Shown in pieces: positions 35,597 through 41,157 of a stretch of 64,000 nt of DNA. Made by a program: the position numbers and the translations under genes. The notes beneath the pieces were generated by a model that did not search any database, was not told the DNA's origin, and was given only the letters and a program-made list of their open reading frames with translations. The first letter of the stretch is position 1. Each line of letters opens with the position of its first letter. Origin of the DNA: an uncultured Lachnospiraceae bacterium (GTDB taxonomy: Bacteria; Bacillota; Clostridia; Lachnospirales; Lachnospiraceae); assembly GCA_947626365.1 (NCBI GenBank), contig CANQRW010000005.1:1-64000 (forward strand), written 5' to 3'.

Positions 35597-35625
35597 ATCA
35601 TAACAGCTGAATTTTCAAATGTCAA
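35597..35625 (-). promoter_or_regulatory. Likely glnA promoter overlapping the ATPase stop codon
   Basis: Leftward TTGACA (35620-35625) and TATGAT (35597-35602) with a 17-base spacer. The -35 overlaps the TGA stop of the upstream ATPase gene. The start would fall near 35590, giving a leader of about 135 bases before glnA. Confidence 0.7.
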
Positions 35626-37631
35626 TATTTTCTCTTGTAATTCAATGCCCGGATGGCGTTAAGAATAGCGATTACCGACACTCCCACGTCGCCGAACACT
35701 GCCATCCACATGTTGGCCAGCCCCAGCGCCACCAGGATCAGTACCAGAATCTTCACGCCGATGGCGAAAATGATATTTTGGCGGACGATTCCCACCGTCT
35801 TTCTGGCAATGCGGATTCCATCGACAATCTTGGAGGGCTCGTCGTTCATGATCACCACATCGGCCGCCTCCACCGCCGCGTCGGAACCGATGCCGCCCAT
35901 GGCGATTCCCACATCGGCCCTGGAGAGCACCGGGGCGTCGTTGATCCCGTCGCCCACAAAGGCCAGCGACCGGCCTTCCGGTTTCTCCGCCAGCAGTTCC
36001 TCCACCTTTGCCACCTTATCCTGGGGCAAAAGATTGCCAAATACCCGGTCCAGGCCCAGCTGACCGGCCACCGCTTTCCCTACAGACTCCTTATCCCCCG
36101 TCAGCATGACCAGACTGCGGACGCCTTCCCGCCGCAGGCCGGCAAAAGCCTCCGGCACATCCTCACGGACCGTATCCGAGATCAGGATGGAGCCGATAAA
36201 GGTATTGTCCCTCGCCACATACAGAGTAGTTCCGGCAGCTTCTTTCCGGCTGTTCACAGAAATTCCCTGCCGCTTCATCAGCTTTTCATTGCCGATATAC
36301 AGATCAAAGGTTCCGGCAGCTTCCGCACTGCCGGGCGCGCCGGCTTCCTTCTTTCCACCGTCTCCGGACGATACGGCCCGAAGAACCGCATGGATTCCGT
36401 GTCCCGCAATCTCTTCCACCGATTCGATCCGGCCCTGATCCATGACCTCACTTTCTCCGCCGCTTTCATGACCGTCATTTGAGGCCGCAGAGGCCGCCTT
36501 ACCCTGCCCCCTCGAATCTGTGTCAAGCATATGCTCATAGGCTTCCAGCACAGATAAAGCGATGGGATGGGTGGAATGGCTCTCGCCGTAAGCCGCCAGC
36601 GTCAGAAGTTCTTCCCTGCTTACGCCTTCCTCGGGCACTGTCTCCGTCACCTGGAACCGGCCTGTAGTCAGGGTGCCGGTCTTGTCAAACACGACCGTAT
36701 CCAGATTTCCCATAGCCTCCAGATAGTTGCTGCCCTTCATAAGGATTCCCTGCTTCGACGCCGCGCCCAGGCCGCCGAAAAAGCTTAGGGGTACGGAGAT
36801 CACCAGAGCGCAGGGACAGGATACCACCAGGAAACTGCAGGCCCGGTACAGCCATACGGACCAGGGCTGCCCCAGAAGCAGCGGCGGGATCACCGCCAGG
36901 ATTACCGCCAGGGCCACGACCACCGGCGTATAGACCCGGGCAAACCGGGTGATAAAATTCTCCGCCTTCGCCTTACGGGAACTGGCGTTTTCCACCAGCT
37001 CCAGAATTTTGGCCACGGTAGAATCGTCGTACAGCTTCGTCACCCGCACCTCCAGCAGGCCGTTGATATTGATGGAGCCGCTGACGATATTATCTCCCTC
37101 ATGAATCTCCATGGGCATGGACTCGCCGGTCAGGGCCTTGGTATCCAGACTGGAGGTTCCCTTCAGCACGATTCCGTCCAGAGGCACCCGCTCGCCGGGC
37201 CGGATCACCACCGTCTCGCCGATCTCCACCTCATCCGGGTCCACCTGCTCCTCGCTGCCGTCCCGCAGCACATTGGCAAACTCCGGATTGATGTCCATCA
37301 GGTCCGAAATGGATTTCCGGGATTTATTGACCGCATAGTCATTGAACAGCTCACCCACCTGATAGAACAGCATAACGGCTACCGCTTCCTCATAAGCGCC
37401 TATGCCGATGGCTCCGAAGGTGGCGACAGTCATAAGGAAATTCTCATCGAACACCTGGCCGCCCCGAATCGTCTTCAGAGCCTTCAGCGGAATATCATAT
37501 CCCGCCGAAAGATAAGACACCGCAAAAAATATCCAGTCAATGGGATGAGTTCCCTCGGAAATCAATCCCGCGATCAGAAATACGGCGCTGATACACAGGC
37601 GTATGGTCATTTTTTTCTGCTTCTTCGTCAT
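35622..37631 (-). CDS. CPx-type heavy-metal-exporting P-type ATPase
   Basis: A 669-residue P1B ATPase that pumps metal ions outward. Membrane helices precede and include the metal-translocating SCPCALVISVP; the actuator has TKALTGESMPM, the phosphorylation site is FDKTGTLTTG, the nucleotide domain has the P1B-specific HP motif in ESHSTHPIALSVL, and the hinge is FVGDGINDAPVLS. The SCPCAL motif and the CadC-like repressor next door point to Zn/Cd/Pb. There is no N-terminal metal-binding domain. Two low-complexity insertions rich in Gly, Ala, Ser and Glu occur in the nucleotide domain (around residues 370-395 and 415-432). Confidence 0.93.
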   Translation of the reverse strand: MTKKQKKMTIRLCISAVFLIAGLISEGTHPIDWIFFAVSYLSAGYDIPLKALKTIRGGQVFDENFLMTVATFGAIGIGAYEEAVAVMLFYQVGELFNDYAVNKSRKSISDLMDINPEFANVLRDGSEEQVDPDEVEIGETVVIRPGERVPLDGIVLKGTSSLDTKALTGESMPMEIHEGDNIVSGSININGLLEVRVTKLYDDSTVAKILELVENASSRKAKAENFITRFARVYTPVVVALAVILAVIPPLLLGQPWSVWLYRACSFLVVSCPCALVISVPLSFFGGLGAASKQGILMKGSNYLEAMGNLDTVVFDKTGTLTTGRFQVTETVPEEGVSREELLTLAAYGESHSTHPIALSVLEAYEHMLDTDSRGQGKAASAASNDGHESGGESEVMDQGRIESVEEIAGHGIHAVLRAVSSGDGGKKEAGAPGSAEAAGTFDLYIGNEKLMKRQGISVNSRKEAAGTTLYVARDNTFIGSILISDTVREDVPEAFAGLRREGVRSLVMLTGDKESVGKAVAGQLGLDRVFGNLLPQDKVAKVEELLAEKPEGRSLAFVGDGINDAPVLSRADVGIAMGGIGSDAAVEAADVVIMNDEPSKIVDGIRIARKTVGIVRQNIIFAIGVKILVLILVALGLANMWMAVFGDVGVSVIAILNAIRALNYKRKY

Positions 37632-37746: not shown

Positions 37747-38127
37747 TCACTCGTTGATATGCTCCATGCCCTGGGCCAGAATGGTCTGAATATGGCCGTC
37801 CGACAGGGAATAGAATACGGTCTTGCCCTCCCGGCGGAACTTTACCAGCCGCATCTGCTTCAGGATCCGCAGCTGATGGGAAATGGCCGACTGCCCCATC
37901 ATAAGAAGGGACGCGATATCGCAGACACACATCTCCGACTGACTCAGCACATACAGGATCTTGATCCTGGTGGAATCGCCGAATATCTTGAAAAACTCGG
38001 AAAGGTCGATCAGCTCCTGCTCATCCGGCATGACCGACTGCACTTTCTTCACGATATCGTCATGAACATGAACCAGTTCGCAGGCGCCCTCGGCGACCTC
38101 CTGCTCTATCATCTCTCTCTCTGTCAT
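37747..38127 (-). CDS. ArsR/SmtB-family metal-responsive repressor, CadC-like
   Basis: A 126-residue winged-helix repressor released from DNA by metal. The ATG at 38127 follows AAGGAG; longer starts would run into the operator. The HTH is QSEMCVCDIASLLMMGQSAI then SHQLRILKQMRLV. The CVC pair matches the thiolate site of CadC-type Cd/Pb/Zn sensors, and the C-terminal SDGHIQTILAQGMEHINE keeps the Asp, His, His and Glu positions of the second (alpha-5) metal site. It precedes the CPx ATPase by 115 bases on the same strand and presumably controls it. Operator and promoter lie at 38203-38261. Confidence 0.93.
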   Translation of the reverse strand: MTEREMIEQEVAEGACELVHVHDDIVKKVQSVMPDEQELIDLSEFFKIFGDSTRIKILYVLSQSEMCVCDIASLLMMGQSAISHQLRILKQMRLVKFRREGKTVFYSLSDGHIQTILAQGMEHINE

Positions 38128-38202
38128 AGCAATTCTCCTTCCCTGGATCCTATGCGGACCATGGATTACCGTCATTCTTTCCGCACAGGTGATTGATATT
38201 TT

Positions 38203-38236
38203 TATTAACATATGAATAACTGTTCATATGTTAATA
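38203..38236. promoter_or_regulatory. ArsR-type operator
   Basis: A perfect inverted repeat with 14-bp arms, TATTAACATATGAA (38203-38216) and its complement (38223-38236), around TAACTG. It resembles the ATATGAA...TTCATAT operators bound by SmtB/CadC-type repressors. It overlaps the -10 and predicted start site of the repressor gene, so bound repressor would block transcription. Confidence 0.8.
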
Positions 38237-40283: not shown

Positions 40284-40889
40284 TTAGGCTCTTCCCTTTT
40301 CCGCCCCGCGAAGCGCTTTAAACACGCCGCCCTGCTCCAGGGTCCACGCCAGTGTGTAGAAAATGGCGGAATTGATGGGCCACATAATCAGATTTTTAAA
40401 GACCCGCATGGGAAGTATGGCGAAAAACGCCTGCCCGTACATGATATTCAGCCACAGGGTCCCCAGAAACATATTGCATACTACGGAGACTGCCAGCTCC
40501 GCCGCCAGCACTCTCCACAGGCGCAGCGGCTTCCGGTACAGGAACACGCCGTACAGCACTCCCGCCACGGCGGCGCTCAAAGTCCATCCCGGGAAAAACG
40601 CTCCCGTAGGCTTGACGATGAATTTCAGGATGTCCAGGGTCCCTCCGAACAGCGCCCCCACCACAGGCCCGAACAGATAATACACGAACTGATTGGCGAT
40701 GCTGGAAAAGCCGATCTTGATGTAGTCTCCGATGGCGATGGTCAGCGCCCCCAGTATGATGGAGATGGCGCCGAACATGCCCAGAGTGGTGATCGTCCTT
40801 ACCTGGACGCCCTTCACCGTCTTGTCGTCTGCTCCGTACACATAGAATTCTCTGTAAGATTCCTGGAACAAAGTCGCTAATTTCTTCAT
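40284..40889 (-). CDS. folT: ECF transporter S component for folate, FolT-like
   Basis: The substrate-binding membrane subunit of an energy-coupling-factor folate importer; the shared EcfA/EcfT module is not in this window. The 201-residue protein has about six hydrophobic segments, beginning after VQVRTITTLGMFGAISIILG, with GPVVGALFGGTLDILKFIVK and FFPGWTLSAAVAGVLYGVFL typical of FolT-type S components. The AAGGAGG ribosome site is strong. A tetrahydrofolate riboswitch lies upstream, which supports folate rather than another vitamin as substrate. A CCGGC/GCCGG hairpin (40258-40272) follows the stop. Confidence 0.88.
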   Translation of the reverse strand: MKKLATLFQESYREFYVYGADDKTVKGVQVRTITTLGMFGAISIILGALTIAIGDYIKIGFSSIANQFVYYLFGPVVGALFGGTLDILKFIVKPTGAFFPGWTLSAAVAGVLYGVFLYRKPLRLWRVLAAELAVSVVCNMFLGTLWLNIMYGQAFFAILPMRVFKNLIMWPINSAIFYTLAWTLEQGGVFKALRGAEKGRA

Positions 40890-40950
40890 AAAAAATTACC
40901 TCCTTTGCAGCCCTCTTACTACAACAGGAGATAATCATCCTATCTTCCAT

Positions 40951-41157
40951 TGCAGCGGGATGCGACCTGCGCACCGCGGAATCTCCGCGCCTGACCGCAT
41001 AAGGTACTCCACCGGAGAAATCTCTCATTCCGATTGGAGAAATCTCTCATTCCGATTCTCTTCTGTCCCTTCTGCGGCGCGGCCTTCTCTCTCCTTCGTC
41101 CCACAGGCAACTCCCCGTCCTGTAAGCACTTGACGCGCGCAAATCTACTCTGCTTTT
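40951..41157 (-). promoter_or_regulatory. Tetrahydrofolate riboswitch with an enlarged arm, upstream of folT
   Basis: Conserved THF-riboswitch pieces occur in order on the - strand: P1 GCAG (41150-41153) with AGTAGA, GCGTCAAGTG (41127-41136), a P3 stem ACAGG/CCTGT around GGGGAGTTG, GGGACGAAG (41094-41102), then CGCGGTG (40973-40979), a P2 strand GCGCAGG pairing with TTTGCGC, TCGCATCC and P1 CTGC (40952-40955). Between ACGAAG and CGCGGTG, where known members have only about six bases, there are about 115. An anti-Shine-Dalgarno CTCCT near 40926-40931 could mask AAGGAGG (40909-40917), suggesting translational control of folT. Confidence 0.82.

Follow-up and report, generated by a model that had tools for sequence, protein, structure and literature searches.

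Our analysis revealed an entire THF-I riboswitch aptamer upstream of folT on the minus strand (41157-40950) of the window, i.e. of the whole stretch of 64,000 nucleotides that was analysed. Very likely, this is a working translational riboswitch of folT whose P4 hairpin was extended into a long peripheral arm that folds on itself, a 'variable insertion'. The letters of core, pseudoknot and platform show no damage, and the extra bases are located in P4. Compensatory changes keep the base of P4 paired, and the length of P4 varies widely among close kin. The downstream gene (40284-40889, minus strand) encodes the folate-family S component of an ECF transporter with 201 aa (TIGR04518 with 121.6 bits at a cut-off of 60, and PF12822 with 63.1 bits), and folT is presumably the gene under riboswitch control. 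The genome contains a single THF match. A consensus scan for promoters upstream of the leader found none; ahead of the leader, TGATATACT (41192-41184, minus strand) was noted by eye, which we take to resemble an extended -10 promoter element. Elsewhere in the window, a putative heavy-metal P-type ATPase (35622-37631, minus strand) was seen beside a small ArsR-like regulator (37747-38211, minus strand), both noted by eye from the translations.

Two covariance models were used to delimit the element. The Rfam THF model (RF01831) gave a partial match of 37.1 bits against a cut-off of 36, from 41138 to 41074 and covering model positions 17-80 of 99. This match ends early because a decoy within the P4 arm, GGCCGCGCCGC (41074-41084), is taken in the Rfam alignment for the last part of P4 plus the 3' strand of P2. 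For the second model, relatives were collected: 63 folT loci were found in named genomes, and P4 was measured in 58 of them (L074 by hand). The remaining five are L075 and L093, which start too near the gene, L121 and L128, which were missed by the text pattern, and L129; R1 matches L121 and L128 in full, with spans of 104 and 102 nt, and gave no match to L129. R1 is the covariance model built from the THF leaders of 43 of the 58 measured loci (alignment A1), with the element itself and its nearest relative L067 excluded; L067 was omitted deliberately, and 14 others were dropped because they were near-duplicates or to keep the set short. On the 64-kb window R1 matched the whole element (41157-40950, 102.7 bits, E 2.5e-26, model positions 1-113) and assigned the extra bases to the loop of P4. 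The original prediction of a THF riboswitch was thus confirmed by both models, whereas the extra domain it had proposed between the conserved parts turned out to be an elongation of the existing P4 hairpin. Rejection of the 3' half by a covariance model, named there as a point against the prediction, did not occur with R1, which was built from leaders that include long P4 loops. A second case is L023, where the Rfam match spans 88 nt although the text pattern gives a P4 of 119 nt, and the Rfam THF model can thus truncate members with a long P4.

Read 5' to 3' on the minus strand, the parts follow in the order P1 GCAG, P2 GCGCGT, P3 with ACGGGGAGTTG, CGAA, P4, GCGGTGC, J2/1 with TCCC, and CTGC. 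All conserved aptamer parts could be located in order and with matching P1, P2 and P3, as had been claimed from the sequence alone. The 5' strand of P1 (GCAG, 41150-41153) pairs with CTGC (40952-40955), with 100% of cells paired in the 43 relatives; by R1 alignment and fold, this 3' strand is common to the aptamer and a predicted anti-sequestor. R1 alignment and covariation place the strands of P2 at 41133-41138 (GCGCGT) and 40971-40977 (GCGGTGC). Both the Rfam and the R1 alignments support the P3 hairpin at 41098-41129 (strands 41129-41119 and 41107-41098) with its loop L3, ACGGGGAGTTG, at 41108-41118. The pseudoknot is formed by GGGA on the L3 side (41112-41115) and TCCC on the J2/1 side (40957-40960), as assigned from the letters and the covariation of relatives. 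The enlarged P4 arm comprises 117 nt (40978-41094), an enlargement of roughly ten-fold, and we counted 115 bases between ACGAAG and CGCGGTG, in agreement with the approximate number given before. Among 21 core pairs checked no mismatch was found.

The structure is well supported by the relatives. In A1, 96.7% of 1117 cells are paired with double changes at 15 of 26 pairs, and none of 500 shuffles was equally high on any of five measures of covariation. Double changes occur at all four pairs of the P4 base, mainly between A-U and G-C. For the L3-J2/1 pseudoknot, all 172 cells from the 43 relatives are paired, with three double changes at two of its four pairs; of the ligand sites, the one in this pseudoknot is described as relevant for control (PMC9881143).

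The element and that of L067 (95% folT identity) share 86 of 88 letters in the core and 60 of 62 in the platform, compared with 78 of 99 four-fold sites in folT. This argues against a broken riboswitch copy that was split by an insertion and is nonfunctional, an explanation we regard as very unlikely. The full-length match of R1 speaks against it as well, as do arms of at least 50 nt with matching cores in eight other members of the folT clade described below and in L107, L108, L110 and L120. In its favor are the Rfam match, which is partial and barely above the cut-off, the existence of a compact close relative, and some core pairs that are missing from the unconstrained fold. In an energy model holding neither pseudoknot nor ligand, the unconstrained fold of the aptamer is better by 5.3 kcal/mol than the fold with the core forced (-77.7 vs. 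-72.4); it keeps P1, the outer part of P2 and P3, with other pairs replacing three junction-proximal pairs of P2 and the P4 base. For L067 the non-core fold reaches -76.3 and the core fold -70.5, and its computed core is essentially absent (0.00), again in a model of energies that leaves out pseudoknot and ligand.

A phylogenetic tree of FolT proteins (57 rows, comprising our sequence and 56 of the 58 measured loci; L126 and L127 were left out) places the protein in a clade of 13 members with a support of 98/92. Within this clade P4 measures 117 (this element), 81, 12, 64, 67, 119, 72, 71, 68, 27, 34, 27 and 72 nt, so that nine of 13 members have a P4 of at least 64 nt. Outside the clade, P4 is 10-33 nt long in 42 of 46 folT leaders, the exceptions being L107, L108, L110 and L120 with 53, 52, 50 and 76 nt, respectively. 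In the tree, the seven sequences that lie closest outside the clade, with Hungatella and comparable names as titles, have a P4 of 12-14 nt; the support for the joining node is 91/94, and it is not starred. The titles of the twelve named clade members read 'uncultured Lachnospiraceae bacterium isolate Lapin-...'; 'lapin' is the French word for rabbit, and going by these isolate names the clade members would come from rabbit gut.

Even the closest relatives differ in arm length. The sister L068 (93% folT identity) has a P4 of 12 nt consisting of just GGAATGATTTCC. The original prediction had connected compact relatives with a broken copy; such a relative does exist, but nothing points to a broken copy. 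L076 and L078 have a P4 of 27 nt amid relatives with 68-119 nt, and their basal letters are similar, GGAGACGG... Going by these letters, the short arms of L076 and L078 read as having lost their interior, though gain and loss are not firmly separable because the support within that group is moderate. By eye, the arm base in L071-L074, L076, L078 and L079 keeps GGA-GA on one side and GA-TCC on the other in most cases, possibly as a tandem G-A internal loop.

The prediction that the insert folds as its own arm is supported by computation. When folded alone, all 18 arms exceeded the average stability of their dinucleotide shuffles (all z negative), and for nine of them at most 5 of 300 dinucleotide shuffles were equally stable; since the arms are related, these values are not independent. 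The arm of our element has a z of -1.96, its stability being reached by 10 of 300 dinucleotide shuffles; weak results were obtained for L069, L074, L078 and L112, where 44 to 118 of 300 shuffles reached the stability of the real arm. Our arm is predicted to form one long rod in which two 22-nt repeats pair with each other with a probability of up to 0.86. The perfect 7-bp pairing of CCGCGCC with GGCGCGG, which had been proposed to close the insertion, exists, but its closing role did not hold up. It is a minority pairing at chance level: 32 of 200 mononucleotide-shuffled arms hold a perfect helix of at least 7 bp, and its pair probability is 0.23-0.35 compared with 0.64-0.77 for the competing pairs. 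Forcing the helix costs as little as 0.7 kcal/mol (-37.3 vs. -38.0), and because of this small cost we consider it a real alternative which loses to its competitors rather than the closing stem.

As to whether real arms disturb the core less than shuffled ones, the leaders differed. In 10 of 13 leaders the mean core-pair probability was above the mean obtained with shuffled arms, L067, L074 and L110 being the exceptions, in a model without pseudoknot or ligand (L077 was skipped for a length mismatch). With our own leader, 4 of 100 shuffled arms left the core as well formed as the real arm did.

Sequence conservation of the arm is largely restricted to the nearest relative. It should be noted that global arm alignments flatter, as shuffled letters still average an identity of 0.72. 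The arms of our element and L067 are clearly related, with an alignment score of 76 compared with 33 for the best of 200 shuffles; 67 of 76 aligned letters are identical and 46 of 122 columns contain gaps. The alignment score with L120 was 6 and like that of shuffles (mean 4.4), and the one with L069 (22) equalled the best of 200 shuffles (22). For L071 the score of 36 lay below that of the best shuffle (45.5), and for L072 it was slightly above chance (28 compared with 24.5). A search for similar arms in other folT leaders had been suggested. Long arms occur in the clade, in L120 and in L130, but among the five arms compared only that of L067 is clearly alignable in sequence. Regarding the predicted pairs of the arm, 21 have letters in both our element and L067, of which 17 are the same, two are changed on one side, one shows a double change (G-C to A-U) and one is broken; 14 further pairs fall into gaps. 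Other pairs of relatives show more broken arm pairs (5 of 17 from L072 to L073). A search for other Rfam families in the arm found none, the sole other match up to E 10 being one of 12.8 bits on the opposite strand that we attribute to chance. An ATG-started upstream frame of 210 aa (40396-41028, minus strand), which begins in the insert and overlaps folT in another frame, was considered as a candidate and dropped solely for poor arm alignment.

These comparisons bear on whether the arm is an extra functional domain, be it a second sensor, a platform for a protein or a kinetic delay before closure of P2/P1. The presence of arms of 64-119 nt in nine of 13 clade members, their stability above the shuffle means, the one double change between our element and L067 and the low number of shuffled arms that leave our core as well formed would all fit such a domain. 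On the other side, arm alignment to the four more distant relatives is poor or absent, P4 ranges from 12 to 119 nt within the clade, the 12-nt sister is found at 93% folT identity, and the arm contains no other Rfam family. We consider an extra domain unlikely on balance. In particular the second sensor or protein-binding arm of the original prediction found no positive support and is not indicated, because there is little arm conservation with the four distant relatives, the length varies as described and there is no other Rfam match.

The arm contains an exact tandem duplication of 22 nt, with the first copy at 41057-41036 and the second at 41035-41014 (5' to 3' on the minus strand). When a near-palindromic unit like this one is duplicated in tandem, a hairpin becomes longer in one step. 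Direct repeats were detected in three of six arms examined, depending on settings, namely in ours, in L139 and in L071, and none were found in L067, L120 and L130 at the settings used. In L139 (103-265), which belongs to another family, the P4 region is an imperfect tandem array with a period of 14 nt, and the arm of L071 contains a 17-nt repeat with 88% identity at a distance of 40 nt. An exact 22-nt repeat in a draft genome of 144 contigs could also raise the suspicion of an assembly error, with the repeat or more of the arm misassembled. However, long arms are present in other assemblies (L071 has 119 nt, and L130, from another genus, 111 nt), and with one repeat copy subtracted the arm would still measure 95 nt, which makes such an error highly unlikely.

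A mobile or foreign element (MITE, REP or intron-like) that landed in the P4 loop was also considered, as suggested by the abrupt length gap to the compact sister. Against this, the arm is present as a single copy in its genome (11 further matches had E-values of 0.19 or weaker), there was no match among 72,556 plasmid records, and the shorter arm of the nearest relative aligns with ours. The mobile-element insert was rejected on the missing second copy and plasmid match, and we regard it as extremely unlikely.

The platform between aptamer and gene suggests how the riboswitch might act on translation. Folded over its first 40 to 56 bases, the platform prefers a predicted anti-sequestor hairpin (40919-40955, minus strand, -14.0 kcal/mol), which starts from the CTGC of P1 and covers the anti-SD CUCCU together with UUGUAG. 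By 62 platform bases, past the SD AGGAGG (40899-40904), a predicted sequestor hairpin (40888-40943, minus strand) that hides the SD dominates and finally reaches -23.1 kcal/mol. The two hairpins are mutually exclusive in our computations. The complete platform folds best into the sequestor both when the P1 strand can take part and when it cannot, and the SD is unpaired with a probability of 0.00-0.02 in both cases. With the anti-sequestor forced (-15.6 kcal/mol), the SD letters are unpaired with 0.93 to 0.21. Binding of THF would close P1 and withhold CTGC from the anti-sequestor, the blocked anti-sequestor would leave the SD to be hidden by the sequestor, and translation of folT would drop. 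Without THF, the anti-sequestor, being transcribed first, might hold the SD open for a time. Such switching would have to be kinetic: once the platform is complete, the sequestor is preferred regardless of the P1 strand, so that equilibrium folds predict the OFF state in both ligand states. We infer THF-dependent switching of folT by the platform from these computed folds.

As for the arm itself, P4 probably points away from the ligand sites, and the aptamer would then tolerate changes in length at this position. The arm may grow through tandem duplication and shrink through deletion, while selection would mainly demand that it pairs with itself and leaves the core undisturbed, so that a separate function of the arm would not be required. 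The P4 arm has the look of an appendage that is tolerated and changes fast, not of a second sensor, and the data point to P4 as a place where the THF-I aptamer tolerates differences in length. The arms of at least 64 nt in nine of 13 clade members could hint at a clade-specific use. It is improbable, in our estimate, that the long arm is a regulatory part that tunes the THF response, either as a folding clock that inserts about 100 nt of additional transcription after P3 and before the closure of P2/P1, or through structure-based binding of a partner. A role in timing is worth testing because the computed platform switches only kinetically. The natural series of P4 arms from 12 to 119 nt on a near-constant core and platform is suited for tests of the effects of arm and transcription time.

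Surveys at higher taxonomic levels indicate how unusual the length is. Within the genus, the Rfam THF model matched in 23 of 26 genomes; G004 and G015 gave neither an Rfam match nor one to a 96-base leader query, and in G016, also without an Rfam hit, the contig starts within the leader. In the family, R1 matched 165 of 397 genomes, with a median element of 104 nt among the best 150 matches, three of which reach 150 nt, our own included (155, 202 and 208 nt). In the class, 209 of 391 genomes were matched, and among the best 150 matches the median is 105 nt and three, again with ours, reach 150 nt (157, 163 and 208 nt). The 202-nt element, L130, belongs to another genus and has its own P4 of 111 nt, closed by GATGC/GCATC, a length counted from sequence; because of it, we conclude from sequence comparison that the P4 hairpin has been lengthened in several lineages. 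In two other genera, L132 (213-355) and L137 (965-1092) have J2/3 enlarged by an additional hairpin, located between GCGTT and AGTGCC. J2/3 is a second insertion-taking site of THF riboswitches, and P4 is therefore not the sole one. On contig C5 of G168, two THF riboswitches of equal score were seen at 414936-415038 and 416844-416946, about 1.9 kb apart on the same strand.

In the parts of the literature searched, a scope to which the primary THF-I papers do not belong, we did not find long P4 arms of THF-I described, and we make no claim that such arms are unpublished. THF-I riboswitches are described as a three-way junction of P2, P3 and P4 with an L3-J2/1 pseudoknot, preceding the folate genes folT, folC and folE (PMC9881143). 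The element resembles the THF-I family (RF01831) in the order P1-P2-P3-P4, the three-way junction, the pseudoknot, the conserved letters and the place before folT, but has a P4 of 117 nt where the Rfam consensus has a 4-bp stem and a 5-nt loop. 'Variable insertions' of riboswitches have been described by Barrick and Breaker in 2007 (PMC2258182), and our arm is alike in being a long, non-conserved stem-loop extra at a fixed site with the core intact; the sections of that study which bear on such insertions do not treat THF, and the site here is P4 of THF-I. Fungal TPP riboswitches, as far as the relevant sections of PMC11683625 describe them, have an extended P3 of up to 172 nt, and Rfam matches are often incomplete when the P3 arm exceeds about 60 nt. 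As in our element, the arm exceeds the rest of the aptamer and the Rfam match breaks off inside it, though riboswitch, kingdom and helix are different. The arm is thus of a known kind, a riboswitch variable insertion, located here at P4 of THF-I and unusually long and widely varying within one clade.
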